Of a stretch of 64,000 bases of DNA, positions 9,601-46,022 are shown one piece after another. The first letter of the stretch is position 1; the number at the start of each line of letters is the position of its first letter. The notes beneath the pieces were generated by a model. The model had not been told where the DNA came from. It saw only the letters and a program-made list of their open reading frames with translations, and did no database searches. Origin of the DNA: Clostridia bacterium (GTDB lineage Bacteria; Bacillota; Clostridia; Oscillospirales; Acutalibacteraceae); NCBI GenBank assembly GCA_017507805.1, contig JAFWAC010000022.1, forward strand, positions 1-64,000, given 5' to 3'. The translations under genes and the position numbers were made by a program.

Positions 9601-10075
9601 GGGCAGTTTCCTTTGCTTTTTCATAATCACCGTTTAAAAGACGGCGCGGAATTTCACCTGCAAGGCAGGCTGAAAGCGCAATCAAGCCGCCGCTGTATTT
9701 CTGCAAAAGCTCTCTGTCAACGCGCGGCTTGGAATAAAAGCCCTCGGTAAAGCCCTTTGAAACAAGCTTTATGAGGTTACAGTAGCCCTCAAAATTTTCA
9801 CAAAGCAAAACAAGATGAGCATAGTTAAAATCCCTGCTTTTTTGCTTTTCAAAACGGCTGCCGGCTGCAACATAAACCTCACAGCCTATAATCGGCTTTA
9901 TGCCCTTTGCTTTTGCGTATTTATAAAAATCAATAACCCCATACATAACGCCGTGGTCGGTAACGGCAATAGCCTCTTGACCAAGCTCTGCAGCACGGTC
10001 AATAACACGCTCTATTCGGCAACAGCCGTCAAGCAGACTGTACTCCGTGTGCAAATGCAGATGCGTAAAACCCAT
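6623..10075 (-). CDS. dnaE: DNA polymerase III alpha subunit, DnaE type
   Basis: This 1150-residue C-family DNA polymerase acts in the replisome. An N-terminal PHP domain (HLHTEYSLLDGCCRIE, with further His/Asp clusters up to about residue 270) precedes the polymerase core. The catalytic aspartates are in MPDFDIDFCY, and GPGRGSGAASLAAYC and KAHAAAYSFVAYRTAY are core signatures. Helix-hairpin-helix and OB-fold regions follow after about residue 790. No 3'-5' exonuclease insertion is seen, so it is not PolC. In Firmicutes, DnaE works with PolC in lagging-strand synthesis. It has its own promoter. Confidence 0.97.
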   Translation of the reverse strand: MGFTHLHLHTEYSLLDGCCRIERVIDRAAELGQEAIAVTDHGVMYGVIDFYKYAKAKGIKPIIGCEVYVAAGSRFEKQKSRDFNYAHLVLLCENFEGYCNLIKLVSKGFTEGFYSKPRVDRELLQKYSGGLIALSACLAGEIPRRLLNGDYEKAKETALWYEQTFGKGNFYLELQNHGIREQQLINPQIIRISRETGIPLVATNDVHYTNADDYKMHKVLLCIQTGSRLSEESPLEFKTNEFYLKSEQQMAELFPDTPQAVTNTAEIAQRCNVEFEFGKIKLPRFDIGDRDHFEYFKNKCLEGMHRIYGDTPDKTVTDRLDYELSVINRMGYVDYYLIVADFVNYAKTHGISVGPGRGSGAASLAAYCIGITGVDPLKYDLYFERFLNPERVSMPDFDIDFCYVNRQKVIDYVIDKYGTDRVSQIVTFGTMAARAAVRDVGRVMDVPYAVCDRIAKLIPQAVGMTITKAMQSSAELKGLYENDLQIKELLDMALSLEGMPRHASTHAAGVVISDKPVSEYVPLAVNDEAVVTQFTMTSLEELGLLKMDFLGLRNLTVIDDAQKFIRKTEPTFDIEKISLNDKATYDMMGKGNTDGVFQFESDGMKNVLRQLGPQSIEDLTAILSLYRPGPMDSIPKYIHNRHNPQDISYDTPLLKPILDVTYGCIVYQEQVMQVFRALAGYSLGRADIVRRAMAKKKHAVMQKEREFFLYGEKDDNGNVICEGAVARGVSEEAAKRIFDDMSSFSSYAFNKAHAAAYSFVAYRTAYLKCHYPAEYFAALMTSMMDSASKIVLYSSECKRNGISILPPSVNYSDSGFTPDGKNIRFGLMAIKNLGIGLIERLIAEREQNGKYTSMYDFCKRNFSREFNRKALDGLIKSGALDGLADNRRQMLYNIDGVLNAVENERRFSAEGQLNLFGEMGETTEFVPEPMEEMSEDLRLSLEKEATGLYLSGHPMDKFSAFTELAGMTKISDILSGKLSDGKRVSVAGILSGLKTRRLKSGATMVTVMIEDITASLPVTVFEKAYIMYKDLFSAAQPVVLSGKISEREDRDIEIICEKVEIIPETATQLKPTAKKHKSGLYLKIKNTEEPVFLTIKGILAENNGDFPVYIYCTETGRKLEAPPALRINLQSGAVSKIADVLGQENVKLVE

Positions 10076-14252: not shown

Positions 14253-14636
14253 AATAACAACCCTTTCGTTTCTCATTTTAAATAACATTTCCAGAAACAT
14301 TGGTATCAACCCCTTGATAATATTTGTGTTTTGCTACACTCTTGTCGTTGTGAAGCCGTGAAACGGTTGCGGCAATCCGTAAATTTTCCTCTACTATATA
14401 TCTCGTGATTTTTTGCTTTTGGTTGCAAAAGAATAAAAATCCGTTTACAACAAAATTGTACAAAAAACTTAATTCAACCGCCCTGGTTCTATACAATTTT
14501 TACCACAAAACGGATGAGATGTAAATATTTTTTTACAATAATTAAAATATTAAATTTTTTTATTTCATTTAGCAAGGCTTTGTGTTATAATGATAAAGAA
14601 TGTTTATATCTCTTTAAAAGGACGAACAAAAAAGCA
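14253..14636. other. Divergent intergenic region between lipoprotein operon and rlmB-like gene
   Basis: These 384 bases separate the minus-strand lipoprotein operon from the plus-strand methyltransferase gene. An inverted repeat (AAAATTGTA at 14453, TACAATTTT near 14493) flanks about 31 bases and could be an operator. A clear extended -10 promoter for the plus strand sits at its right end. No convincing promoter for the lipoprotein operon was found. A 72-codon minus-strand frame (14278-14496) has no ribosome binding site or recognisable domain and is not called. Confidence 0.5.
14564..14591 (+). promoter_or_regulatory. Extended -10 promoter for the rlmB-like operon
   Basis: TATAAT at 14586-14591 is preceded by TG one base upstream (TGTTATAAT), an extended -10. 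A weak -35 (TTCATT) lies 16 bases upstream of it. The methyltransferase ATG is about 45 bases downstream. Confidence 0.6.
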
Positions 14637-15395
14637 ATGGAAAATACTAACAATGAAAAGCTTTCAAATATTATATGCGGCAGAAATCCTGTTTTGGAAG
14701 CAGTGCGCTCCGGCAGAGAAATTGACCGTTTGCTTGTGGCACACGGGGTTAGCGGCGGTTCTGTAACAGCAATAATTGCCAAGTGCAAAGCCAAAGGAAT
14801 TCTTATAAAGGAAATCAGCCCGCAGAAGCTGGATTATTACTGCGGCGGTGCCAATCACCAAGGCGTTGCCGTTATGTTTGCTTCGCAGGAATATTCCACA
14901 GTGGAGGATATTTTTACCCTCGCGGAGCAACGCGGTGAAAAGCCGTTTATAATTATTTGTGACGAAATTGAGGACCCCCACAATTTAGGTGCGATTATAA
15001 GAACGGCAGAAGCCTGCTCGGTTCACGGCATAATTATTCCCACACGCAGAAGCGCATCGCTCAATGCAACTGTTGCCAAATCTGCAAGCGGCGCCCTTGA
15101 ATATATGAAGGTTGCGCGTGTTACCAATATTCCCAACACTATTGATTTACTCAAGGAAAACGGAATTTGGGTTTTTGGCGCTGATATGGACGGCGAGGAT
15201 TACACACAGACAGATTTTGATATTCCCTGTGCTTTAGTAATCGGTAACGAGGGCAAGGGTATCGGAAATCTTGTTGCAAAAAAATGCGATAAGATTATAA
15301 GTCTGCCCATGTGCGGAAAAATCAATTCACTCAATGCTTCTGTTGCGGCAGGTATCCTTATGTACGAGGTTGTTCGCAAAAGGAGGCAAAAATGA
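14637..15395 (+). CDS. rlmB: TrmH/SpoU-family 23S rRNA 2'-O-methyltransferase, RlmB-like
   Basis: The 252-residue SPOUT methyltransferase uses AdoMet to methylate a ribose 2'-OH. The N-terminal substrate-binding domain starts NIICGRNPVLEAVRSGREID. Three SpoU motifs follow: EDPHNLGAIIRTAEACSVHG, ALVIGNEGKGIGNLV and LPMCGKINSLNASVAAGILM. The ATG at 14637 puts the GRNPV motif at a normal position; the frame is open further upstream but overlaps the promoter. AAAGGA lies upstream at a rather long spacing. The last four bases overlap the next gene (ATGA). The exact target (G2251-type or another site) cannot be told from sequence. Confidence 0.9.
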   Translation: MENTNNEKLSNIICGRNPVLEAVRSGREIDRLLVAHGVSGGSVTAIIAKCKAKGILIKEISPQKLDYYCGGANHQGVAVMFASQEYSTVEDIFTLAEQRGEKPFIIICDEIEDPHNLGAIIRTAEACSVHGIIIPTRRSASLNATVAKSASGALEYMKVARVTNIPNTIDLLKENGIWVFGADMDGEDYTQTDFDIPCALVIGNEGKGIGNLVAKKCDKIISLPMCGKINSLNASVAAGILMYEVVRKRRQK

Positions 15396-17965
15396 GTATT
15401 TTTTCAAAGAAAAACAAGAAGGATATTTTCACAATTCTTGATGAAATAGACGACAATGTCCCGGCAACCGAAAGCGGTGCTGACAAAAGCGCCGAGGATA
15501 AGCCTGCCCCAAAGCACGCCTTGACACCCGAGGAGCTATTAAGTCACGAAACAAAGCCGACAGCCTTTGGCAGCAGTAGCTCAGGTGCATTGGAATCGTT
15601 AAAAAAACGGCTTACAGCCGCCGCAGACAATTACTCCGCTGACACAGAAAATGCGCTTAATGACAGTGAAATTCCCCCTGAGGAAAAGCCCTCTGAAGCA
15701 CAGAGTGACACAAAAAGCGGTTCTTCTCTTTTAGACAAATGCTTACCCTACATTCTGGATGACGAGGGCAACAACACAGCCGAGCAAGCTCCTCCCCTTT
15801 ACAAGCTTCAAACCGTTGCCGAAATTCTTAAATCGGACAGCGAAAAAACCTTGGAGCGCCTTTCGGAAAAATACGGGCTTGATTTTAAAATTCCGGGAAG
15901 CTCGCAGGATAAACCAAAGGAGGAAGCAAAAAAAAGCCAAGCCGCCGAAGCAGAGGAAAACATTTTTGAGGAAAGCATACCGGCAGGCAGCCGCATAAAG
16001 AATGCTCAATCAAATGTGCCGTTTGTCATCTCGGATATTGACACTCCCTCCCAAACGGCGCCGGAAAAGTCAAACGATATAAGCAACACGGCAACCGTAA
16101 CCTTCACCCCCATCAGTGACGAAAACAATAATTCTCACATAACGATTTCCACGCAGACGAGACCGATTGACCTTACAGGTGAGATAACCGATATGCCCGA
16201 GGTAAGCTCTCATTCGCGCCTTGAGGATGAGGTTCATCTTGAAATGAGCGAATTTGAGGAATACATTCCCGACACCGAATTTGACAGTGAAAAATCCTCA
16301 GGAAAGCTTTTAAGGCTTTTTTCGATAAAAAACAGGCGCGCTTTTCTTTCAATGACAGCAACCGTTTTCCTTAATATTTTGCTTGTTGTTGCCGCAATGC
16401 CCTTTTTCTCGCAAATTTTAGCACTGCACCCGACCGTCAGCATGATAATATGCTCGGCAATAGCGGGTATAATTATATTGCTTAACTGTGATATGTTTTT
16501 AAGTCTGCCAAAGGCATTCGGGAAAAAATCCGTCCCGGATATCTGTGCGGCTTTAGCATCTGTCACGACCGCCACATACGCATTTTTTGCAATCGCGGAA
16601 AAAACCGTTTTCATAAATATACTTTTAATGCTTGCAGTTTCTCTCAGCTTCAGAGCAATCTCCAAATTCTTTAAAACCTCTTATATGCTCTCAAATTTCA
16701 AGCAAATCTCCTCATCCTCGCCAAAGCACGGATTGAGGCTTATAAGCGATACTGCAGTGACCTTTGCAATGGCAAAAACCTCGATAGAAGGTGATGCGCT
16801 TATAGCCGCACCCCAGAAAGCAAATCATATTGCCGATTATATGAAATATTCCACCTTCGGCACCACACTTGGCGGAAAATTACCTCTGATAACTGTGCTT
16901 TCTGTTATACTTTCTGTTATATCCGGCTTTGCCTGTGCCGCCTATTTTGACGGTGCGGTTTACGGCTTTTATGCCGCTGCGGCAATCCAATGCTTTACAG
17001 CCCTGCCCGCCTTTTTCCTTATAGAAAGCCTGCCTCTTTACAGAGCTTCCAAAAAGCTAAACCGCGAGGGTGCCGCGATATTCGGAAAAAGTGCTGCCGA
17101 GCAAATTGAAATGGCAAATGCGGCGGTATTCTCCGCTACTGACCTTTTTCCTGCCGGCACTGTGGTTTTGCACCAAATGAAGGTTTTATCCGAAAATGAC
17201 CTTGAGGATACACTTGTGCGCGCCGCATCGCTTACAGATGCATTAGACAGCACCCTGGCACCGATATTCAAGCAAATCGCCGGAACGGGAAATATTGAGG
17301 TTTTACCCGATTCGGACACAGTTAAATATGAGGATAAAATGGGTATTTCCGGCTGGGTTGACAACCGCCTTTTATTCATTGGCAACCGCACACTGATGGA
17401 AGCTCACGGAATTGATGTGCCCTCGGTTGAGGTTGACCGAAAAATATTGAGGCAAGGTTTTTTCCCGGTATATCTTGCAACAAGAGACAAGGCGTGTGCC
17501 TTGCTTGTGATACAGTATAATCCCGACCGCAAGGTTGCGCGTGAATTGCGCCGCCTGACAGTGCTTGGAATCACACTGCTGATAAGCAGCAGTGACCCCA
17601 ATCTCACAGAGGAAATGATTTGCGATTATTTAGGTCTTTATAACGACTCTATAATGGTTATGTCCTCGGCAGGCTGTCACATGTATAAAAACACCGCCTC
17701 TCCCACAAAGGAGCTTTCTGCTCCCGCGGCATACAGGAGAAATAACATAACCTTAGCCAAAATTATTAACTGTGCAACCAAAATCAAACGTTCCGTCACA
17801 CTGCTGACCGCGATTTATATTATCTGCGCGGCGCTTGGCATTTTGTTTTTTGCATACAGCTCTTTGGGCGGCTCCGGAATACTTATAAAGGACTCCACCC
17901 TTTTGCTTTACAGTTTAATCTCCACTGTGATTACCTACTTAATTTATCTTGTTGAACGACCTTAG
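15392..17965 (+). CDS. Membrane protein resembling a degenerate, catalytically dead P-type ATPase
   Basis: The 857-residue protein starts at the ATG at 15392 behind AGGAGG, overlapping the upstream stop. Residues 1 to about 310 are acidic and low-complexity. Membrane segments follow at about 315-375 and 395-435, with more at 515-560 and near the C-terminus (about 795-855). From about residue 555 it follows a P1-type ATPase layout: TALPAFFLIESLP like the metal-site helix, GAAIFGKSAAEQIEMANAAVF leading into FSATDLFPAG where active pumps have FDKTGTLTxG, MGISGWVDNRLLFIGNRTLM like the nucleotide-domain GxGV...GN stretch, and LISSSDPNL in place of MLTGD. The phosphorylated Asp is replaced by Ser (about residue 581), and the TGD and GDGxND motifs are missing. 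I infer a pseudo-ATPase, perhaps a scaffold or sensor. Function is unknown. Confidence 0.6.
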   Translation: MSIFSKKNKKDIFTILDEIDDNVPATESGADKSAEDKPAPKHALTPEELLSHETKPTAFGSSSSGALESLKKRLTAAADNYSADTENALNDSEIPPEEKPSEAQSDTKSGSSLLDKCLPYILDDEGNNTAEQAPPLYKLQTVAEILKSDSEKTLERLSEKYGLDFKIPGSSQDKPKEEAKKSQAAEAEENIFEESIPAGSRIKNAQSNVPFVISDIDTPSQTAPEKSNDISNTATVTFTPISDENNNSHITISTQTRPIDLTGEITDMPEVSSHSRLEDEVHLEMSEFEEYIPDTEFDSEKSSGKLLRLFSIKNRRAFLSMTATVFLNILLVVAAMPFFSQILALHPTVSMIICSAIAGIIILLNCDMFLSLPKAFGKKSVPDICAALASVTTATYAFFAIAEKTVFINILLMLAVSLSFRAISKFFKTSYMLSNFKQISSSSPKHGLRLISDTAVTFAMAKTSIEGDALIAAPQKANHIADYMKYSTFGTTLGGKLPLITVLSVILSVISGFACAAYFDGAVYGFYAAAAIQCFTALPAFFLIESLPLYRASKKLNREGAAIFGKSAAEQIEMANAAVFSATDLFPAGTVVLHQMKVLSENDLEDTLVRAASLTDALDSTLAPIFKQIAGTGNIEVLPDSDTVKYEDKMGISGWVDNRLLFIGNRTLMEAHGIDVPSVEVDRKILRQGFFPVYLATRDKACALLVIQYNPDRKVARELRRLTVLGITLLISSSDPNLTEEMICDYLGLYNDSIMVMSSAGCHMYKNTASPTKELSAPAAYRRNNITLAKIINCATKIKRSVTLLTAIYIICAALGILFFAYSSLGGSGILIKDSTLLLYSLISTVITYLIYLVERP

Positions 17966-17977
17966 GAGGAATAAAAT

Positions 17978-19900
17978 ATGTGTGAAAAAAAGAAATTTTA
18001 CATCACCACTGCAATTGCCTATACCTCGCGCAAGCCGCATATAGGAAATGCCTATGACATTGTGCTTGCTGACATGATTGCCCGTTATAAGAAAATGATG
18101 GGCTTTGATGTGTTTTTTATGACAGGCTCGGACGAACACGGTCAAAAAATCGAGGAATATGCTAAAGCCGCAGGGATTACCCCAAAGGAATATGTTGATA
18201 ACATATCCAATGAAATCAAGGCTGTGTGGAACAGTCTTAACACCGATTACGACAAGTTCATCCGCACGACCGATACAGACCACGAAAAGGCTGTTCAGGC
18301 TATATTTAACAAGCTTTATGAGCAAGGCGATATTTATAAAGGACATTACGAGGGCAAGTATTGCGTACCCTGCGAGTCCTTTTTCACCGCTTCTCAGCTT
18401 GTAGACGGTAAATGCCCCGATTGCGGCAGAGAGGTTATTGATTCTAAGGAAGAAGCATATTTCTTAAAGCTTAGCAAATATCAGGATAAATTACTTGAAT
18501 ATTACGAGCAAAATCCCGATTTCATCAAGCCTGAATCACGCAAAAACGAAATGATAAACAATTTCCTAAAGCCGGGACTTTCCGATCTTTGTGTTTCACG
18601 CTCCTCCTTCAAATGGGGTATTCCCGTAACCTTTGACCAAAAGCATGTTGTTTATGTGTGGTTGGATGCGCTCTCAAACTATATCACAGGTATCGGCTAT
18701 AACCCCGAGGGAAGTACCGAGCAGTTTGAAGCTCTTTGGCCTGCCGACCTGCATGTTATAGGTAAAGATATTGTTCGTTTCCACACCATTTATTGGCCGA
18801 TTATTCTTATGGCTTTAGGTCTCCCCCTCCCCAAGCAGGTTTTAGGTCATCCTTGGGTGCTTGTGGGTGAGGATAAGATGTCCAAATCAAAGGGAAATGT
18901 CATCTATGCCGATGAGCTTGCAAAGCGCTTTGGTATCGATGCTGTGCGTTACTACTTACTTTCTGAAATTCCCTTCGCACAGGACGGCACCATAACCTAC
19001 GAAAGCTTTATTTCAAAATTCAATGCTGACTTAGCAAACACATTAGGAAATCTTGTCAACCGTTCTATCGCAATGACAAACAAGTATTTCGGCGGTAAGG
19101 TTTGCTTTGGCGAAGCTACAGAGGATTGCGACAGGGAGCTTTTAAGCACCGTCAGCAGTACAATCAGCGATTATCATAAATATATGGACTTGTACCGCAA
19201 CGCTGACGCCTGTGAAGCAATTATGAATCTTGCAAAGCGCTGTAATAAATATATTGACGAAACCACTCCTTGGACACTTGCTAAAGACGAAGCGATGCTC
19301 CCCCGTCTTTCTACCGTGCTTTATAATCTGCTTGAATGTATCAGAATTTTAAGTGTTTTGCTCAGCCCCATTATGCCCGATAGCTGTAACAGCATAAAGC
19401 AACAGCTTGGTTGTGAGGAAAATTCCCTCAGCTTTGGTGCAGTAACCGAGTATTCCGTTGGCGAAGCCGCACCCCTGTTTGCGCGTATTGACACTGCAAA
19501 GGTTTTAGAGGAAATTGCTGCCGAGCAGGAAGCCGCTAAAAAAGCAGAGACCGCCGAGAATGTTACAACAATGGCTCAGATTGCGATTGATGATTTTTGC
19601 AAGGTTGAGCTTAAAGCTGCAAAAATCATTGCCTGCGAGCCTGTTCCCAAAGCCAAAAAGCTTTTGAAGCTCACCCTTGACGATGGCAGTGGCGCCAACC
19701 GCACGGTAGCTTCCGGAATTGCTAAATGGTATAAACCTGAGGAGCTTCTCGGTCACACAGTTGTTCTTGTTGCAAACCTTAAGCCTGCCGTACTTTGCGG
19801 TGTTGAATCTAACGGTATGATTCTTGCCGCAGACTGTGCTGAGGATGATGTAAGAGTATTGTTTATTGACGGTATACCGGAAGGCAGTAAAATCAGATGA
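17978..19900 (+). CDS. metG: Methionyl-tRNA synthetase
   Basis: The 640-residue class I aminoacyl-tRNA synthetase charges tRNA-Met. The HIGH-like motif is KPHIGNAYD, and KMSKS is in GEDKMSKSKGNV. A zinc knuckle with two CxxC pairs (CVPC and CPDC) lies near residue 130-150. The anticodon-binding helical domain extends to about residue 510. A C-terminal OB-fold tRNA-binding/dimerisation domain (IDDFCKVELKAAKIIACEPV to the end) is present. TAGGAGG lies 9 bases upstream of the ATG. The stop overlaps the tatD start by four bases, so the two are translationally coupled. Confidence 0.97.
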   Translation: MCEKKKFYITTAIAYTSRKPHIGNAYDIVLADMIARYKKMMGFDVFFMTGSDEHGQKIEEYAKAAGITPKEYVDNISNEIKAVWNSLNTDYDKFIRTTDTDHEKAVQAIFNKLYEQGDIYKGHYEGKYCVPCESFFTASQLVDGKCPDCGREVIDSKEEAYFLKLSKYQDKLLEYYEQNPDFIKPESRKNEMINNFLKPGLSDLCVSRSSFKWGIPVTFDQKHVVYVWLDALSNYITGIGYNPEGSTEQFEALWPADLHVIGKDIVRFHTIYWPIILMALGLPLPKQVLGHPWVLVGEDKMSKSKGNVIYADELAKRFGIDAVRYYLLSEIPFAQDGTITYESFISKFNADLANTLGNLVNRSIAMTNKYFGGKVCFGEATEDCDRELLSTVSSTISDYHKYMDLYRNADACEAIMNLAKRCNKYIDETTPWTLAKDEAMLPRLSTVLYNLLECIRILSVLLSPIMPDSCNSIKQQLGCEENSLSFGAVTEYSVGEAAPLFARIDTAKVLEEIAAEQEAAKKAETAENVTTMAQIAIDDFCKVELKAAKIIACEPVPKAKKLLKLTLDDGSGANRTVASGIAKWYKPEELLGHTVVLVANLKPAVLCGVESNGMILAADCAEDDVRVLFIDGIPEGSKIR

Positions 19901-36763: not shown

Positions 36764-38332
36764 TTATTTCATTGTTTCTACCGCGCTAATCTCAACGGGT
36801 AATGCTTTTTTATAAAGCTCGAGATACCTTGCAAAGCCTTCAATTTCCTCGGGCTGTGCCATAAGTGTGACCGATTTTGCCGAAGCAAACACCTCGGTCT
36901 CAAGGTACTCATCAAGAGACTTTCCATCGGTATTCCACAGATAATAAGACGCCAACAGCGCCATTCCGTAAGGTCCGCCCTCGCCTGCGGTTTCCATCAC
37001 AGAAACAGGACAGTTAAAAGCCGCAGAAAGTATCCTCTGTCCAACACCGGGTGTTTTAAAGTAGCCACCGTGAGCATTAATTGTCTCGATGCACACATCC
37101 TCTGCCGTTAATATGTCCATACCGATTTTAAGGGTTGCCAAGGCAGAAACCAAATGCGTTCTCATAAAATTAGCAAGTGAAAAATCACTGTCAGGCATAC
37201 GGGCAAAAATAGGTCTGCCCTCATTAAGGCGGGTTATTCCCTCGCCCGAATAGTAGTTATAGCTTAACAATCCACCGCAATCAAGGCTACCCTCCAATGC
37301 TTTCTTGAAAAGAATGGTGTAAAGCTCGCCTTTGCTTACAGAAGCTCCTATAACATCTGCAAACTCACCGAACAGGTTTACCCACGCATTTATATCCGAG
37401 GTGCAGTTACTGCAATGCACCATTGCCACGGGTGTGCCTGCCGGAGTGGCAACCATATCTATTTCCGTGTGCATTTTAAGCTTTTGCTCTGTAACCACCA
37501 TTGCATTGACAGATGTGCCGGCAGAAATATTTCCTGTTCCGCTTTTTACGGAATTGGTTGCAACCATACCCGTACCCATATCACCTTCGGGCGGCACCAT
37601 GGGAATACCGGGGCAAAGCTCGCCTGTAGGGTCAAGGAACAAAGCTCCCGCTTCTGTGAGGGTACCCGCCGCATCGCCTGCTACGAGCGATTTTGGCAAA
37701 ATTTCCCTTATTTTCCAAGGATATGCCTTGTCTGCAATCATTTTCTCAAAGCAATCAAGCATGGTGCTGTCATAATCGTTGGTTTTGCTGTCTATCGGGA
37801 ACATACCTGCCGCTTCACCGACACCGAGCACCCGTTCACCCGTCAGCTTCCAATGAACATAGCCGCAAAGGGTAGTAAGATATTTTATACGCGGAAGATG
37901 CTCCTCGCCGTTAAGTATCGCCTGATAAAGATGCGCAATACTCCAGCGTTGCGGAATGTTAAAATCAAATTTTTCCGTAAGCTCTGCCGCCGCTTTAGCA
38001 GTGGTTGAGTTGCGCCAGGTGCGGAAAGCGGTAAGTATATTACCGTTTTCATCAAGCGGGAGATAGCCGTGCATCATACCCGAAATTCCAATGGCACCCA
38101 CTGTGGTAAGAGGTTGCGCAAATTTTTCCTTAACATCCCGTTTAAGGTCGGCAAAACAGGCACGAAGCCCATCGTGAACCTCGTCCATAGAATATGTCCA
38201 ATATCCGTCTATAAGCTTGTTTTCCCATTCGTAGCCTCCGAAAGCAATCGGTGTGTGCTTACGGTCAAGCAACACTGCTTTAATACGCGTTGAGCCAAGC
38301 TCTATTCCAAGCACCGTCTCTTTAAAATCCAT
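36764..38332 (-). CDS. FGGY-family carbohydrate kinase (ribulokinase/xylulokinase-like)
   Basis: The 522-residue sugar kinase has a two-lobed actin-like ATPase fold. Motifs are the N-terminal [17 protein letters not shown], the sugar-site [16 protein letters not shown], the second-lobe [17 protein letters not shown], and the C-terminal [23 protein letters not shown]-binding stretch. The ATG at 38332 has GGGGGAT upstream and is preferred over a longer frame. Coupling to a GH127-type gene suggests it phosphorylates a pentulose derived from L-arabinose, but no araA or araD is present, so the substrate is open. Confidence 0.88.
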
Positions 38333-38397
38333 ATACAAAATCCCCCAAATATAATTTATCACCCAGACAGTTTAACTTAAGGCTGTTATTTTTGTTT

Positions 38398-39201
38398 TTA
38401 TATATTATTTCTCCATGCGCTGCTTTTTTCTATACGGGCTTCGCGGGAGCGAGTCTGACATTCGAGACGGTGTTTACTGCCTCGGGCACACAGGTTTATC
38501 TGTATGTCATATCCAAAGGTCTGGTGTATTATATCCTCGACAACGCCGCTTTCAAGAAAGCTACAGGAAAACACATCGATATTTGCCGTTCTTTCCTCTA
38601 TAGAATAATGAAATGCTATATGGCTTTGCGCAACTATCAATGCCCCCGAAATATATTGAGGGTTTTCGGTTTTATCGTATATAACATACGGTCGCGCAAT
38701 TGCCTGCATATTAATTTTAGGCGCGATGGTATCCAACCAGCGGTATATGCTTTCAAGGGTTGCATCAATGTTATTGACCGTGATGGTGTAATGAGGCCCG
38801 AAATCATTGAATTTGTCGATTTCCTCATCATCCTTTTCGTTTAACCGCCTGTCAACAACGGTTGAGCTTATGTTGCTTGCATAAATCTGCTTGCAGATCA
38901 TATCGGTGACCTCTGCTTCACCAAAAAACGAATTGGTGAGAATATCAACAAAATAGCAGGCTCTGTAAGGAAAAGTATGTATCGTGATGTGCGAGCCGTC
39001 TGCACAGAAGCAAAAAGCGCTTACACCCACATCCTCGGGATCCTCGCAATAATAAAAGGGTATTACAAAGGGAGGCATAATGGGCTTCATATCCAATTCG
39101 TTTGATATGTCTACCAAAAGATCGTTTACAGTCATAATGCTGTTGGCTTGTTCAACAAGGCAACCGTAAGCATCAAGCATATAATGTCTGTCAGCGAGCA
39201 T
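38398..39201 (-). CDS. Tandem AdoMet-decarboxylase-like (SpeD-fold) protein
   Basis: The 267 residues contain two SpeD-like repeats of about 130. Repeat 1 starts RHYMLDAYGC and has GSHITIH (Ser70, His75), matching the pyruvoyl-serine and catalytic His region ESHLTIH of bacterial AdoMetDC; the catalytic Cys position (LFTCG in SpeD) is ILTNS here (Asn90). Repeat 2 starts PHYTITVNNID and has QSHIAFH (Ser193, His198) and DVFSCS (Cys213), keeping Ser, His and Cys. The self-cleaved Glu-Ser bond is Gly-Ser and Gln-Ser here. Known SpeD homologs make decarboxylated AdoMet or, in neofunctionalised forms, decarboxylate other amino acids. It is the last gene of a TIR/ParA operon, 9 bases after the previous stop; no spermidine synthase is nearby. 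A non-polyamine role is inferred. Confidence 0.75.
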   Translation of the reverse strand: MLADRHYMLDAYGCLVEQANSIMTVNDLLVDISNELDMKPIMPPFVIPFYYCEDPEDVGVSAFCFCADGSHITIHTFPYRACYFVDILTNSFFGEAEVTDMICKQIYASNISSTVVDRRLNEKDDEEIDKFNDFGPHYTITVNNIDATLESIYRWLDTIAPKINMQAIARPYVIYDKTENPQYISGALIVAQSHIAFHYSIEERTANIDVFSCSFLESGVVEDIIHQTFGYDIQINLCARGSKHRLECQTRSREARIEKSSAWRNNI

Positions 39202-39210
39202 AAAATTCTC

Positions 39211-41505
39211 CTATTCTACAAAAATATCATTAAATTCCTTGAAATTAATCAGCAAAGGATCAATCCACCAGCGTTTGTTGGCTCTCAGGGTGTTGGGAAG
39301 ACAATAAAATACATCGCACAGATTATATTTAAATTCTGTAAGCACATTGATTTCGTTTCCTGAGTTTTCCTCCCGACTGTCCCTTTTGAGATTGAGTGTA
39401 AAGGTGACAGTTTTGTATCCGTCATAGTTTTCATTCCCGCGGTTATAGGTAGCCGTGAAGGGATAGATGGTGTTAAGCTCGGATACAGCACCCTTACCGT
39501 AAGAGCCGGAGGTTAAAAACCGCAACAGCTTAAGAGCAGAATGGATAAGGTCATCCCCGTCTTCAACAGTATTGGTTTCGAGGTCCTCAATTAAAGTGCC
39601 GAAGCCTTTTTTGAATAATTGCACATCAAAAATCTCGTATTTACCTATTGCAACATATAAGCCGTTAGAATCGGAATTGCCACCTATTCCCTTGGTTTGG
39701 GCGCACCTGTTGCTGAGCTCGATAAATCTGTTTATAAGTATTGCAACATTTACGGGTTGCTTTGTATCGTACGACCGGATAGCCTCCATCTCTGTTTTTG
39801 CCGCCTGCAAAAACTCGGTGTTAAGCTTTGTCTGATTGGTAAGAATTTCATCAGTAGACAAGGCTTTATCATAGTTTTTCGCATCTATAACCGCCTTTTC
39901 CTTACCATAGGCAATCGTGCCTTTATAGAAGCAAAGCAGATGCTTAAAGGTCTCTCCCAGGACAACGCAGGCATCCTCTTTTTTCTGCTCGTCAGGCTTG
40001 TCAAGCATTATGCTTTTAAGCAAGGCTTCGTTATCGTAAATATTGCCTGCGCAAATAATTCGGTCATCTACAATAGCAGAAAGAGACGAAATAATCAGCA
40101 TTGCCGCCGCACGGGCAAAAAGCCGTTTGTTGCGGATGCGAATTTCATCCCGTTTAATATATCCAAAACCGCTTGCTTCACCGATAATAAGCTTTTTATT
40201 GATGATTTCCTCTACTTTCTCTCTTAATATCTCGCCCGGGATATTATATATCGGCATTTGCGGATTGTCGATGCGCTTGCAAATATTGGAAACGATATAA
40301 TAAAACATCTGCTCGTTGCTCTCAATCAAGGTTTCCAAGACCTTGCTCGGACTTGCCTCTATAAGCAGCATAACAATAATTCCGTCCCAATCTATGGCGG
40401 TATCGTCAATAGATTGGGCATTTTTCACCCTTGCAAAAACATCTGGATATTTTCTGCCGAAAAGGTCATACAAAACCTGCCTTGAGCCGTGAATCAGCAC
40501 CATAGCATCGGATATCGAGAGTGCCAGATTTTTAATATATTTATAGTTTATGGCGTGAATATGGTTTATCAGGTAATCATCATTTTTTTTTACAGTGTCA
40601 TCATCGCCGTCCCACGCAAGACCGGTTATTTCATAAAAGAAATCCTCTGCATCGTACTCGATATAAAGCTGTTCCTTTTCTGGGGCTTCGCTCGAAACCC
40701 TGAAATCCAAGGAATTGTAGTCACCACCCGAAATATAGCGTGCCTGAAGTGATTTTGTGTAGCCCTCTTCTTCCTTTTTCAGACTGAAAAGCGAGAAAAT
40801 TTCTTCAAAGTATTTAACATTATCAATATACAAAAGGTGGTTTATATTGATGATACTGTATTTCTCGTCCTCATAGTTGAACTTATGACGGAAAAAGGTT
40901 TGACCGTCCTCATGCACGAGGGAGTAATTCTCAAGGAAGGGCATATGCTTTACCAATTCGCAAAGCATTTCTGCCGTTTCTTTTATACTCAAATTTGCTC
41001 TAAGCGGAGATGCCTTCCAACGGGCTATCATATTAAAATACTTTACAAGGCTGAAATTGTCATCAAAGGTAGACATATTTGCAAAAACCTCGTAAATCTC
41101 GCCGTCATTATCTATCGCTATGCGTGTTTTCATTTGCTGCATATAGAGCTGTATATCAGACAGCACAAAGCGCTTAAGCTCAAGTGTTACGGGGTGCTCG
41201 TAATATGCCTTTTTAAAGCTGTTTATTATGCGGATGGAGTTTTGTTTCTTGGCATCATAACAGCAAGAACCGTAATCACAATCATATCTGTAACAGCCAT
41301 AAGCAAAAATGAATGCAAGAGACAAAATATTATCTATGTAAGAAATATAATCGCTTTCGTTTTTCTTTATGGCAAATTTGTAATCCGAATCCTTTAAAAT
41401 ATAGATACGGATATTTTCATCGGTAATTTTTGTTTCAAAAAGCTTTAACAGGGTTTGCTTGTAGCGTTCGATTTGTTCGTTTTGTGAAAGTTCTGTGAGA
41501 GCCAT
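39211..41505 (-). CDS. Large unknown protein of the TIR/ParA/SpeD operon (764 residues)
   Basis: No family is recognised. The protein is mostly predicted helical and rich in Tyr, Ile, Asp and Lys. An N-terminal region has a cysteine cluster (YGCYRYDCDYGSCCYD, about residues 69-84). The centre includes SISDAMVLIHGSRQVLYDLF, and the C-terminal 120 residues are beta-like (YPFTATYNRGNENYDGY, VTFTLNLKRDS). No signal peptide, clear membrane helix, Walker motif or nuclease signature was seen. Its ATG overlaps the ParA stop by one base (TAATG), implying translational coupling and perhaps complex formation with the ATPase. The size suggests a structural or effector-partner subunit; that is inference. 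Confidence 0.7.
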   Translation of the reverse strand: MALTELSQNEQIERYKQTLLKLFETKITDENIRIYILKDSDYKFAIKKNESDYISYIDNILSLAFIFAYGCYRYDCDYGSCCYDAKKQNSIRIINSFKKAYYEHPVTLELKRFVLSDIQLYMQQMKTRIAIDNDGEIYEVFANMSTFDDNFSLVKYFNMIARWKASPLRANLSIKETAEMLCELVKHMPFLENYSLVHEDGQTFFRHKFNYEDEKYSIININHLLYIDNVKYFEEIFSLFSLKKEEEGYTKSLQARYISGGDYNSLDFRVSSEAPEKEQLYIEYDAEDFFYEITGLAWDGDDDTVKKNDDYLINHIHAINYKYIKNLALSISDAMVLIHGSRQVLYDLFGRKYPDVFARVKNAQSIDDTAIDWDGIIVMLLIEASPSKVLETLIESNEQMFYYIVSNICKRIDNPQMPIYNIPGEILREKVEEIINKKLIIGEASGFGYIKRDEIRIRNKRLFARAAAMLIISSLSAIVDDRIICAGNIYDNEALLKSIMLDKPDEQKKEDACVVLGETFKHLLCFYKGTIAYGKEKAVIDAKNYDKALSTDEILTNQTKLNTEFLQAAKTEMEAIRSYDTKQPVNVAILINRFIELSNRCAQTKGIGGNSDSNGLYVAIGKYEIFDVQLFKKGFGTLIEDLETNTVEDGDDLIHSALKLLRFLTSGSYGKGAVSELNTIYPFTATYNRGNENYDGYKTVTFTLNLKRDSREENSGNEINVLTEFKYNLCDVFYCLPNTLRANKRWWIDPLLINFKEFNDIFVE

Positions 41506-42461
41506 TATTCGTCCCTCAATTCGATGTTATAAATAATATCGGCAAGCCTTTTATATCTTGACAATGCCAACTGATCATTTTTTGTAAGGGTATCGGGGTC
41601 CTGACAGAAAAGAATGTCCTCTTTCCACATAAATCTTTCAACTGCAGGTATGCCGAAGCAATCCCAATCAAGCAAATCCAAATGATACTTGTGGCGGCTG
41701 CCTTCCATAAAATCGGGGGTTATAAAGGATGACTGTATTTTACTCTTTGCAGTTTCGGGATATTGAACACCGTTAATCGATATTTCCTCAGGAGGGATAA
41801 CATTCGGCACGAGAACGATATCGGTCTCGCTCATATTTTTCATTTCGGCTTCAATTCCGTCTGCATTATCCTTTTCCAATGCAAGCAAAAATCTTTTTGT
41901 GCCGTTCACAAACTGTGTTGTGGGACGCATACAGCAAACGATAACATCCGAAACCTCATTTGATACATTGGCGGTCGCGTTGTTGCCCACAGCAGAATCT
42001 ATGATAACGGCGGGCACCTTAAAGAAGCGTCTGCAGGTTTTAAGGAATTTCTCCATATTATCCTTTGCAAATTCACTGCCGTTATAGTTGGATTTTTCAC
42101 CTGCGGATATTGCCTTATTATCAAAGGCGGGCAATAACAGAATTGCCTCATTGTCGGGGTAGCCGTATGCATTGCCGACAGGGATAAGCTTACTTAAAAA
42201 GGGATGCTCCTTAATGCTTGCCGCCGGCTGAACATAAAACGGTTCGCCAAGCAAATGCTGAACGCAGTTGTCCTTTTCGATTTTGTTTTCCGCTTCAAGC
42301 AGATATGACATACCGCAGCTATCCACATCGGTATCAATTACTATCATGGGGGACTCTTTGGTGGGACGATAGTATTTTTGCGCGAGAATCGGAATAATGT
42401 TATAAGCGAGGGTGCTTCTGCCCGCGCCGCCCTTGTATGAGAAAAAAGAGATAACCTTCAT
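41505..42461 (-). CDS. ParA/MinD-like P-loop ATPase with Arg-variant Walker A
   Basis: The 318-residue deviant-Walker ATPase opens MKVISFFSYKGGAGRSTLAY: the ParA signature Lys (Lys10) is kept but the usual P-loop Lys of KGGxGK[ST]T is Arg15. Walker A' is VIDTDVDSCGM (residues 41-51), and the Walker B-like strand is AVIIDSAVGNN (151-161) followed by VIVCCMRPTTQF, the usual switch region. It has no partner-type ParB or helix-turn-helix domain. 'KGGxGR' ParA-like proteins recur near TIR and other conflict-system genes as far as I recall. Located between two unknown large proteins, it may drive assembly or act as a switch. It is not a plasmid or chromosome partition gene by context. Confidence 0.82.
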   Translation of the reverse strand: MKVISFFSYKGGAGRSTLAYNIIPILAQKYYRPTKESPMIVIDTDVDSCGMSYLLEAENKIEKDNCVQHLLGEPFYVQPAASIKEHPFLSKLIPVGNAYGYPDNEAILLLPAFDNKAISAGEKSNYNGSEFAKDNMEKFLKTCRRFFKVPAVIIDSAVGNNATANVSNEVSDVIVCCMRPTTQFVNGTKRFLLALEKDNADGIEAEMKNMSETDIVLVPNVIPPEEISINGVQYPETAKSKIQSSFITPDFMEGSRHKYHLDLLDWDCFGIPAVERFMWKEDILFCQDPDTLTKNDQLALSRYKRLADIIYNIELRDE

Positions 42462-42487
42462 TTTTAAAATTTCCTTCCAAATTAAAA

Positions 42488-44686
42488 TCAGAATAAACCG
42501 CTTTGATGCTCATCGCTGAACATTACAGCATCTGCAAGCTTGCCTCTTATTCTTGCTATTTCCTTCTTGATTAATGCTCTGGCATCCTCCTTGGTGTCCT
42601 CCCTCAGAGTTTTGTTGTCGGCATTGCCGTCAAAGGCAACCATTTCCAAGAGCAAATCGTCTAAGGCTTCTGTGATTGAGGTGAGCTTTCTGCGATTGTC
42701 GGTTGGCTTCAGGGCGGTACGCTCCTTAAGCGCCTCACGCTCACTCGTCAAAACCTCAAGCAGCATAGTGGGAAGCTGTTCCTTAAGGGTTTCCGAAATC
42801 ATCTGCACAACCGCATCCTCAATCGGCTTTTTAATGGCATCCTTCTCTTGACGGAGGGTTTCAATCTCAAGCTCTTTTTGTTCTATCTCGTTTTGCTGTC
42901 TTGCGATTTCGCCGGTGGTTTCAAGCTCCTTGAAGTATTCCTCACGAATATCCTTAATGGTTGCTTCGTTTTGTTTTGAAATATCCAGATATACCTTTTC
43001 AAAGGTATTGTAGTATCTGTAAAACTCACCCAATGCAGAAATATAGTAGTAGTTGCTGGCGCTGAAAAATCCGTCCGTTTCCCATATCCACTTTGTAACC
43101 TGCTCCCCTGTTTTCGGATCGGTTTCAACAAGGCGGTTTTCAAGGATATAGGTTACATATTTTTTCATATTATACTGCGGATAGCGTATAAGATATTCAC
43201 CGATAACATTATTGGAGTGAATGAGCAGCGGAGCGAGGGAGAACACGCGCATACGGCGTTTACGGAGATCCTTGATAAGGTCGTTATGCACAACAAAGTT
43301 TTCGTTAAAACCAACAAGGAATTGGTCAACAATGTATTCCTTCGAATCCTTCTGCAGCTTTTCGTATGTACGGATAGCCCTCTGAATTGCCAGCTGACAT
43401 ACCTCGAACAATTCGTCATACTCCTCCTGCAGCTTTTTCACATCACCGAAGCGGCGGCTTTCGTTTGCATCCTCCATTTTCATAATGAGGTCCTCGTCAA
43501 TACCGGCATCAATGATAATGTTTACAATATAAACCGAGTTGAACAGCGCGTCACTCGTGGTACTCATTTTAATGGTTTCTTCATCAAGTGTAGAGCCAAG
43601 GTCATTGTAGAAAAATTTATCTGCTAATCCGTTTTTGGTCAGCTCCCATATCTTGTTGGCAACTAATTTGCAATTAAGCTCAAGTTGTCCGTATACAGAG
43701 GCAATCTCGTCCCCCTCGTCATTGAAGGAGTATACCGATGAATCGCCAAAATTAATGGTTTCAAATAATTCTCTGAGCTTTACCTCTCTGCGGTCCTTTG
43801 ACTGTTCATTGTATGCCTTTTTGACTGCAGTCGGCACAGGAATGTCATATTTTCTCTTTTTGTAAAGCGCAAATTCATAATCAATGTGATTTTTAAAGGT
43901 TTCATAAAAATCCACATAGCACTCGCAAACGGCAAATGTAAAGTAAAGTGACGGTTCCTCACACTTTTGTGTAAAATTCCAGCCAATTTCCAGGCGTTTT
44001 GCCGTATCAAGATTTTGAAGCTTTTCCTTATCAACGATAAAGGCATCGTTAATGTAGCGAAGTCCGTGCTTTATAATAGCAACAAGACATCTTTCCCATT
44101 TACAATCCTCTCTTACCTGCCTTGCGTGGTATTTTAAAACAAGAAGGAATGTAGGTATAACCCATGTGATTGAATCTATGTACGAAAACTCAGCCGAAAA
44201 GGAGGTGCTGTCATAAGGAGAAGCATCAAAGCAGAAGGTTGCTTTTTCTAAGAAGCCTTCGGGAAGCTGATGGTTTTCAAGCATATTGACATTATCAATC
44301 TTTTTACCGTTGTAACGGATAATACGGCTTACAATATCCTCAATGACATTATCCATTATTCTGCGGATGGTGGGCTTTGTGCCGTCTGCAAATGTTCTGT
44401 CATCCTCAAAATAGCCTTCCTCGTCAAAAAGGAGTGAAAACTCAGAGGTGAGAAGAAGCAATGCCTGAAGTGACTGACACTGCGAAAGAAGACCTACTTC
44501 ATTTGAGTTATCGTCCATTCTGAAGCCGGTTTTAAAATCAAATCTGGCATAAAGCTCATTAAGAATTTTTTCACCCGTTTCAATGGGTGCTTTGTACTCG
44601 TAAAAGGTACCGTCCTTTGAACTGCCCTCTACCAGAAGCTCGTCAAGGACAGACCGTCCCAAACTTTTAACCTGTGTTTGTGCCAT
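42488..44686 (-). CDS. Large unknown protein of the TIR/ParA/SpeD operon (732 residues), coiled-coil C-terminus
   Basis: No family is recognised. Residues 1 to about 560 are mainly helical with scattered aromatic blocks (TWVIPTFLLVLKYHARQV, EPSLYFTFAVCECYVDFYE, FSASNYYYISALGEFYRYY). From about 585 to 640 comes a charged coiled coil (EIARQQNEIEQKELEIETL and onward), followed by helical segments to the end. No signal peptide or nucleotide-binding motif was seen. It starts 14 bases after the TIR gene stop and ends 26 bases before ParA, inside the operon. A scaffold or sensor role would fit, but nothing in the sequence proves it. Confidence 0.7.
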   Translation of the reverse strand: MAQTQVKSLGRSVLDELLVEGSSKDGTFYEYKAPIETGEKILNELYARFDFKTGFRMDDNSNEVGLLSQCQSLQALLLLTSEFSLLFDEEGYFEDDRTFADGTKPTIRRIMDNVIEDIVSRIIRYNGKKIDNVNMLENHQLPEGFLEKATFCFDASPYDSTSFSAEFSYIDSITWVIPTFLLVLKYHARQVREDCKWERCLVAIIKHGLRYINDAFIVDKEKLQNLDTAKRLEIGWNFTQKCEEPSLYFTFAVCECYVDFYETFKNHIDYEFALYKKRKYDIPVPTAVKKAYNEQSKDRREVKLRELFETINFGDSSVYSFNDEGDEIASVYGQLELNCKLVANKIWELTKNGLADKFFYNDLGSTLDEETIKMSTTSDALFNSVYIVNIIIDAGIDEDLIMKMEDANESRRFGDVKKLQEEYDELFEVCQLAIQRAIRTYEKLQKDSKEYIVDQFLVGFNENFVVHNDLIKDLRKRRMRVFSLAPLLIHSNNVIGEYLIRYPQYNMKKYVTYILENRLVETDPKTGEQVTKWIWETDGFFSASNYYYISALGEFYRYYNTFEKVYLDISKQNEATIKDIREEYFKELETTGEIARQQNEIEQKELEIETLRQEKDAIKKPIEDAVVQMISETLKEQLPTMLLEVLTSEREALKERTALKPTDNRRKLTSITEALDDLLLEMVAFDGNADNKTLREDTKEDARALIKKEIARIRGKLADAVMFSDEHQSGLF

Positions 44687-44700
44687 AAAAAATCTCCTCC

Positions 44701-45888
44701 TTAAATGTTATCCTCTAAAAAGCTATACATAATATCAATTGAAATTTTAATAACGGGTCGCACACCTAATGCCATAGTCCGTACATTGTACCCGTTTTCA
44801 TATATTTTGCCGTTTTCTTTAACCGCTTTCTGAAGCATACTGCTTCCATTGTAGGAAATCCACCACTTGCAATCAGGCTTTTGTGAATCGGCTGACAGCA
44901 TAAGGAAGGCTTTATCCTCCGATTTTTCAATATCGCTTTGGTTCAGCAACCTTAACTCGAGAATTGCTTTTTGCTGTTCCTCGGTAAAGGCGCTTGTGAA
45001 AAAAACATTTTTAAGCCAATCGTCAAGCGCGGCTCCGCCTTTTTGCTCGTCAATAATATCCTTTGTTATCATAACAGCGGCATTGTCCTCACAATAAAGG
45101 CAGAGCCACTCCAAAGCCTTCACGGTGTATGCCGTTTCATTCCGAATCATAAAATACTCATCATTGTATTGAATGATTTTATTCCCCTGCTTCAACCGAC
45201 TTCCCGAAATGTTGGGAGCAGGACGCTTTTTTTCAAATCCGAAATCGATACACAGCAGGTTACCGACATTTTTTGCATTTTTAGATGACCTTAACCGATT
45301 AAGCTTGTGCTTGCTTGAGGTCACCACATCGGGAAGCTTGGTTTCTATCGCTGAAAGAAGCTCCTGTCTGTAATCCTTATCAGACTCGGAATCGACAAAT
45401 ATAAAGGTTTTGTTATCCTTAAAAAGCTCTAATACGGTCTGTATTTTTACCGAAAATTTCTCCGCATCCTGAGCGACCGTTTCAAAGGAATTAGCCTCAA
45501 GCATAGCCTTTATAAGCTCCATTGTTTTTCGCTGACCTATGCTCAGCGGAAAAATCTCAAAGGTTTTTCCCTCGGCTTTAAAGGCGGCAAGCTTTGCCAT
45601 AACCATCTGCCGTTCTTTTTCAACCGCATCACTCGCAAAGGAATCCTTGCTGTTAAAAAATATTATACCAAGACAGTTTTCGTGATTTATAAGCTTTTTT
45701 ACCTTTTCGTCCCAATCATCGCCACACTGCAAATCCTCATCAAACCACAGCCGCACACCTTGGTCAATAAGATAGTTTACGGTGTTTAAAACCACCTGAG
45801 AATCCTCGTGCTTATAGCTTGCTATAATAAATTTTCCTTGAATGATTTCACTCTCGGAATAGTACTCGGGCAAAATCACAACCCCCAT
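44701..45888 (-). CDS. TIR-domain protein fused to a DUF6273-like domain
   Basis: The 395-residue protein is the first gene of the operon. Residues about 17-115 form a TIR domain: the beta-A strand KFIIASYKHEDSQ, the WFDEDLQCGDDWDEKV box and IIFFNSKDSFASDAVEKE, in which Glu92 is positioned like the catalytic Glu of NAD-cleaving TIRs. A middle region (about 160-225, TFIFVDSESDKDYRQELL) is followed by a DUF6273-like module: WLCLYCEDNAAVMITKDII, DDWLKNVFFTSAFTEEQQKAIL, FLMLSADSQK, CKWWISYNG and GYNVRTMALGVRPVIKI. Bacterial TIRs cleave NAD or make nucleotide signals. No ribosome binding site precedes the ATG; a TTG five codons later (45873) behind GGGGG is possible. Confidence 0.82.
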   Translation of the reverse strand: MGVVILPEYYSESEIIQGKFIIASYKHEDSQVVLNTVNYLIDQGVRLWFDEDLQCGDDWDEKVKKLINHENCLGIIFFNSKDSFASDAVEKERQMVMAKLAAFKAEGKTFEIFPLSIGQRKTMELIKAMLEANSFETVAQDAEKFSVKIQTVLELFKDNKTFIFVDSESDKDYRQELLSAIETKLPDVVTSSKHKLNRLRSSKNAKNVGNLLCIDFGFEKKRPAPNISGSRLKQGNKIIQYNDEYFMIRNETAYTVKALEWLCLYCEDNAAVMITKDIIDEQKGGAALDDWLKNVFFTSAFTEEQQKAILELRLLNQSDIEKSEDKAFLMLSADSQKPDCKWWISYNGSSMLQKAVKENGKIYENGYNVRTMALGVRPVIKISIDIMYSFLEDNI

Positions 45889-45904
45889 AAGATATATTTT
45901 TTTA

Positions 45905-45934
45905 ATTATACATCAAATCGTCACATTTTGTCAA
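45905..45934 (-). promoter_or_regulatory. Sigma-A promoter for the TIR/ParA/SpeD operon
   Basis: On the minus strand a consensus TTGACA and a consensus TATAAT are separated by 18 bases, about 17 bases upstream of the TIR-gene start. Consensus boxes suggest steady expression unless repressed. Confidence 0.7.
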
Positions 45935-45991: not shown

Positions 45992-46022
45992 AAAGGAGCT
46001 GCGTTTGAAACGCAGCTCCTTT
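45992..46022 (-). terminator. Rho-independent terminator of htpG
   Basis: AAAGGAGCTGCGTTT and AAACGCAGCTCCTTT form a long perfect stem with a tiny loop, 6 bases past the htpG stop, followed on the minus strand by TTGCTATA. It separates the heat-shock block from the TIR operon. Confidence 0.85.

Follow-up and report, generated by a model that had tools for sequence, protein, structure and literature searches.

A conserved core of four genes, encoding a TIR domain protein, a large protein named P732, a KGGxGR-variant ATPase and a second large protein named P764, was found in this order in seven loci (the window, L006, L007, L008, L012, L014 and L032), whose hosts, some of them gut bacteria, span Clostridia, Bacilli and Bacteroidota. 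In the window, by which we mean the whole 64,000-nucleotide stretch of the Clostridia bacterium contig, the core is followed by an exchangeable fifth component, here a SpeD–SpeD fusion (SpeD2). Sequence comparisons mark the core as an accessory, horizontally transferred cassette that is co-inherited as a unit. On balance we favour the reading that it is a conflict cassette, most likely anti-phage, in which a TIR effector would be placed under the control of P732, the ATPase and P764, with the fifth enzyme acting as a tuner. As in the initial annotation, the defence role is one that we infer. The features of the window are as follows.

44701 to 45888, minus strand: TIR protein, 395 aa, with an N-terminal TIR domain (24–119) and a C-terminal module resembling DUF6273 below cut-off (Pfam TIR_2 and DUF6273, profile match, alignments)
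45613 to 45615, minus strand: Glu92 codon; Glu92 is the candidate catalytic residue of the TIR NADase site (alignments of relatives)
42488 to 44686, minus strand: P732, helical, with a probable alpha/alpha toroid (about 30–560) and then a long helix or coiled coil (543–656) (low-confidence model)
41505 to 42461, minus strand: KGGxGR-variant ParA/MinD-like ATPase, 318 aa (NCBIfam NF047398)
42417 to 42434, minus strand: KGGAGR motif of the ATPase, with the signature lysine kept and arginine at the place of the P-loop lysine
39211 to 41505, minus strand: P764, helical, with a small C-terminal beta domain (about 683–754) (low-confidence model)
38398 to 39201, minus strand: SpeD2, two AdoMetDC-like domains, 267 aa (Pfam AdoMet_dc, alignment of halves)
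38623 to 38625, minus strand: Ser193 codon, at the pyruvoyl-precursor position; His198 and Cys213 accompany it in the C-terminal SpeD half (alignment to 1tlu; kept in L006)
45905 to 45934, minus strand: sigma-70-type promoter-like site before the TIR gene (perfect 12/12 match, TTGACA-18-TATAAT; consensus match only)
45992 to 46022, no strand assigned: 14-pair terminator-like hairpin between htpG and the operon (hairpin scan)

The five open reading frames (ORFs) of the initial annotation were re-found with their coordinates and tight spacing, transcribed on the minus strand from 45888 to 38398 in the order TIR, P732, ATPase, P764 and SpeD2, and separated by 14, 26, −1 and 9 bases, the −1 being the TAATG overlap. 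The consensus promoter and upstream terminator that it had placed before the operon are likewise present, as the 12/12 site at 45934–45905 and the hairpin at 45992–46022. Promoter-like sites over the whole scanned stretch are near shuffle level (27 observed versus 20.0 ± 4.4), and therefore only the perfect site is notable; terminator-like sites number 10 versus 7.2 ± 3.4. The promoter-like site ends, with its −10 box, 16 bases ahead of the TIR start codon, and no Shine-Dalgarno-like sequence is visible by eye at 45886–45905, which suggests that the TIR transcript may be almost leaderless. Upstream neighbours, judged by eye, are htpG, a mannose-6-phosphate-isomerase-like (manA-like) gene and dnaJ; downstream lie a sugar-kinase-like ORF at 36764–38362, named by eye and after the initial annotation, and a glycosidase-like gene. 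The operon and the remaining genes of the window have the same GC content (0.416; third position 0.459 for the operon versus 0.405 ± 0.061), and the operon thus carries no import signature.

Co-occurrence of all five genes across genomes, which the initial annotation had named as a check, was found in the window and L006 only, while the four-gene core recurs across loci. The order P732, ATPase, P764 is identical in all seven, and the TIR gene comes first in the six of six whose contig reaches that far; the L012 contig begins 136 bases before P732, leaving the TIR place out of view. The core is rare, with P732 present in 4 of 394 genomes of the window's order, its own included. A scan of the genome collection gave 32 pattern matches that resolved to five loci, three of them known already and two new, in a Bacteroidota MAG (L012) and a Bacilli MAG (L014). 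The order to which the Bacilli MAG belongs, sampled with 196 genomes, gave three matches, namely that MAG itself, genome G1159 with a full operon (L032), and a weak match that was dropped. No further operon was found among 391 genomes of the class, 398 of the phylum and 198 around the Bacteroidota MAG, these order, class, phylum and neighbourhood samples being partly overlapping. A P764 profile run on 295 genomes of the window's order recovered the four operons already known from it, plus a single weak match. Candidates in G753 (E = 5.4e-4, L010), G964 (6.1e-4, L017), G093 (4.9e-5, L022) and G1174 (2.5e-4, L030 and L033) were dropped as chance matches, with no second core gene in their short stretches. 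L017 still gave E = 1e-4 against the seven-sequence P732 profile, and L033 gave 5e-7 against the six-sequence profile, not reaching 1e-3 with the seven-sequence one.

The trees of P732, the ATPase, P764, their concatenation and the TIR protein (the last without L012) share one unrooted topology with support of 84–100, and pairwise identities or distances among core genes correlate at 0.92–0.99 over 15 or 21 pairs, which are few and clustered. With the order kept in seven loci, this common topology bears out, for the four core genes, the suggestion of the initial annotation that the genes form a unit. The topology cuts across host taxonomy: the host of L007 belongs to the window's own family, yet its operon clusters with L014, the operon of the Bacilli MAG (ATPase 53% and P732 35% identical, versus 31% and 20% to the window). 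This discordance, together with the rarity of the core, fits horizontal transfer; an empty site of the operon could not be shown. Just downstream of the L007 operon (14320–19189), a recombinase-like fragment and transposase-like ORFs are seen by eye, which suggests mobile DNA nearby.

The TIR call is secure (TIR_2, E = 3.6e-11). A profile built from five relatives also hits bacterial TIR chains of solved structure, including the NAD(+) hydrolase AbTIR (8g83, 5e-5) and 7uwg (2.1e-5). Glu92 is invariant in six of six TIR proteins (5/5 first aligned, plus L032) and, in the profile alignment, stands opposite a glutamate of AbTIR that we take to be its catalytic residue. Matching the window protein to SAVED_TIR (1.8e-6), PADLOC recognised the shared TIR domain only, and no relative of the protein was found in the phage collection. 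Of the TIR and DUF6273-like fusion initially described, the TIR part stands. The DUF6273 part is below cut-off in the window (E = 0.0063, 16.8 of 23.5 bits) and unmatched in L006, L007 and L008 (E ≤ 1) and in L032 (E ≤ 0.1), so that its assignment rests on a similar closing motif visible by eye in the relatives.

Neither P732 nor P764 matched any Pfam, NCBIfam or PADLOC model significantly. In PHROGs, P732 had no match and P764 a single one of 42 residues to a family of unknown function (E = 3.8e-4). Relatives of P732 were absent from IMG/VR, plasmid and phage collections, and those of P764 from IMG/VR and plasmid collections. A low-confidence model of P732 points to a probable alpha/alpha toroid that continues into a long coiled coil; P764 matched no known fold.

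The ParA-like ATPase with KGGAGR that had been read from the sequence is present, and matches NF047398 (AAA_KGGVGR) over model positions 2–186 of 190 at E = 7.8e-17, with 62.2 bits against a 90-bit cut-off. The ATPases of the five relatives scanned (L006, L007, L008, L012 and L014) also match below cut-off (3e-15 to 8e-12, 45.9–57.0 bits), and a PADLOC match of the window protein to PDC-M28B (2.1e-5) reflects the shared domain only. K10, G11, G12 and R15 are invariant across all seven ATPases (6/6 aligned, plus L032), the motif of L012 being KGGSCR. R15 presumably occupies the position of the P-loop lysine of ParA/MinD. By analogy, the variant ATPase may not hydrolyse ATP, since related domains of the MinD/ParA type that occur in other conflict systems have been predicted to be inactive (PMC7159879). 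The protein thus shares KGGxGR in place of KGGxGK with the NF047398 family but differs in its sub-cut-off score and in being a separate 318-aa protein of a fixed operon, whereas three viral-contig relatives are single large proteins. These viral KGGVGR ATPases measure 938 aa (L023, 8884–11700), 763 aa (L024, 1924–4215) and 682 aa (L025, 4456–6504), and stand without the partners of this operon.

The fifth position is where the initial five-gene unit needs revision. SpeD2 is, as then described, a duplicated AdoMetDC-like protein (AdoMet_dc in two stretches, E = 4e-23, 82.3 bits against a 25-bit cut-off), whose halves align internally. It occurs after P764 in two of the seven loci, the window and L006 (57% identical). 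In four others (L007, L008, L014, L032) a GNAT acetyltransferase takes its place, as a C-terminal extension of P764 in L007 (3.4e-12), L008 (1.9e-10) and L014 (1.1e-6), and as a separate gene overlapping the end of P764 in L032 (4.5e-10); the four GNATs are mutually related (29–72% identity). The L012 contig stops 90 bases past P764, with the fifth component out of view. Because SpeD2 is swapped for GNAT, the reported unit is better described as a four-gene core, recurring in order, plus an exchangeable enzyme, and a SpeD-like protein is not a constant member.

Ser193, His198 and Cys213 of the C-terminal SpeD half align to positions 63, 68 and 83 of 1tlu (a weak match, E = 0.91, ungapped over 34 residues). 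Ser63, His68 and Cys83 in Thermotoga maritima numbering are the functional residues of class 1b AdoMetDC. The N-terminal half has Ser70 and His75, with Asn or Asp at the Cys place. Both SpeD2 (61.6 bits) and its L006 relative (67.3 bits) score under the TIGR03330 equivalog threshold of 75.65. A search of the window genome (87.6% complete) found neither a spermidine synthase nor a second SpeD, whereas a spermidine synthase was recovered from 11 of 14 control genomes, in 10 of them above cut-off; ordinary spermidine synthesis by the fusion is therefore unlikely in this genome. The other SpeD-bearing genome (G120, 77% complete) gave a sub-cut-off spermidine synthase match only (18.7 of 22.9 bits), and two of the remaining five operon-bearing genomes gave one above cut-off. 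In a study of SpeD1SpeD2 fusions (PMC10407285), these likewise carry two SpeD domains per chain (271–318 aa, against 267 here), but were noticed immediately upstream of speE, unlike the TIR/ATPase context here; in degraded fusions it is the C-terminal half that has lost residues, while here the N-terminal half is the one without Cys.

A gene for a RyR-domain protein adjoins the operon in two of the seven loci. In L032 (4159–6396) it encodes a 745-aa protein (2.9e-11), divergent from the operon, in which an HD-like stretch and, at the C terminus, a SLOG-like region can be seen by eye. The L014 stretch contains the end of a RyR-type gene, on the operon's own strand (2.4e-5, 24.9 of 27.4 bits, below the Pfam cut-off); its product is 51% identical to that of L032 and weakly resembles SLOG (YpsA, E = 0.091). 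The window and the L006, L007, L008 and L012 stretches yielded no RyR relative. A 2026 preprint (PMC13232231) shows that RyR-domain proteins of phages either cleave cADPR immune signals or sequester them. By analogy with this action, the RyR neighbours make an ADP-ribose-type signal plausible for the cassette.

On the conflict-cassette reading, P732, with its toroid and coiled coil, and P764 would, on low-confidence models, form a scaffold or sensor, which a ParA/MinD-type nucleotide switch lacking the P-loop lysine might assemble or disassemble. Upon infection, the complex would release or cluster the TIR protein, whose NADase site would cleave NAD+, either starving the cell or making an ADP-ribose-type signal. 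The swappable enzyme could tune the response through changes that it makes to a partner protein or to a small molecule derived from an amine or amino acid, and in some loci the adjacent RyR-domain protein may bind or clear the ADP-ribose signal. This reading draws on the fixed order in seven loci, the common topology, transfer, rarity (4/394), the glutamate kept in 6/6, the AbTIR match and the RyR neighbours in 2/7; the initial view of a TIR, ParA-like and two-unknowns module holds to that extent, as the module is recurrent, rare and transferred as conflict systems are. Against it stand the unremarkable GC content, the lack of relatives in the viral and plasmid collections searched (IMG/VR, plasmids and phages for P732, IMG/VR and plasmids for P764, phages for the TIR protein) and of a demonstrable empty site, and an ATPase that perhaps does not hydrolyse. 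The proximity to defence islands that the initial annotation had suggested looking for was not seen either, whether by eye around the window operon or by PADLOC on 10 neighbour proteins of the relatives, where one match was returned, to a TIR–DeoR protein (3.4e-8 at best, through its TIR part).

A Thoeris-like two-step pathway, a real but minor possibility in our estimate, would have the TIR protein make a cyclic or conjugated ADP-ribose, a receptor execute the response, and the ATPase, P732 and P764 sense infection; the receptor would be the RyR protein in some loci and an unlinked protein in others. As in Thoeris, where an NADase-type TIR (ThsB) is encoded with partners, the TIR domain and its candidate catalytic glutamate are kept and an ADP-ribose-type signal is plausible by analogy, with the two RyR neighbours and the phage action of such domains on cADPR pointing the same way (PMC13232231). 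However, ThsA with its SIR2-SLOG or macro domain is absent: no SIR2, SLOG or macro domain was found in the five proteins (Pfam, NCBIfam, PADLOC), the flanking window genes being judged by eye, and five of the seven stretches gave no RyR relative. The four-gene core found here instead combines TIR with an ATPase and two large proteins of unknown kind; if a ThsA partner is taken to define Thoeris, the cassette does not belong to it. Doubtful, in our view, is a stress or metabolic regulator outside immunity, sensing polyamine, AdoMet or NAD state with SpeD or GNAT as its enzymatic output. Some GNATs act on amines, and the Ser/His/Cys set is kept in the C-terminal SpeD half. SpeD–SpeD fusions of such size can be active, some decarboxylating both AdoMet and ornithine (PMC10407285), but a search for spermidine synthase found none in the window genome and a sub-cut-off match in G120, the fifth gene is not conserved, and the core is rare and transferred. 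It is quite unlikely that the operon encodes a machine for envelope or macromolecular assembly, with its ParA/MinD-like ATPase providing the positioning and TIR as scaffold only. The class of the ATPase and the long coiled coil modelled in P732 speak for it, but no envelope or secretion family was matched in Pfam, NCBIfam, PADLOC or PHROGs, the candidate NADase glutamate is kept, and the core is too rare for housekeeping.

Also close in outline are the ternary conflict systems that Kaur et al. described in 2020, which, like the cassette, are multi-gene, use TIR effectors and follow a logic of NTPase control, and which sometimes include MinD/ParA-like or GCN5-type acetyltransferase domains (PMC7159879). 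The cores of their NTP-dependent systems are, by contrast, MoxR-vWA or a GTPase with tubulin and HSP70, and MinD/ParA is one effector among many there, unlike the core ATPase here; no MoxR AAA+/vWA or TRAFAC GTPase/HSP70 was matched in the five proteins (Pfam, NCBIfam). In the literature searched, no description of this gene composition was found, in agreement with the initial annotation, KGGVGR being mentioned in an unrelated context only. What the cassette contributes is a TIR module that is both conserved and transferable and that includes two large proteins outside any known family. A bolder, and to our mind improbable, extension is that it represents a new class of immune machine, in which the ParA/MinD-like switch would load a complement-TED/cyclase-like toroid sensor (P732) and TIR, SpeD or GNAT amine chemistry would make or clear a nucleophile that TIR joins to ADP-ribose, and the lineage-specific signal would be read or destroyed by RyR-type proteins. 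The non-homologous swap of a pyruvoyl-type decarboxylase and an acetyltransferase at one operon position is unusual, and offers a direct way to test what small-molecule chemistry does in TIR systems.

The TIR–DeoR protein matched by PADLOC is encoded past the end of the L014 operon, on the opposite strand (8525–9862). In it a DeoR-type sensor domain (DeoRC, 3.2e-23) is joined to a TIR domain (3.9e-13), and no DNA-binding part was matched.
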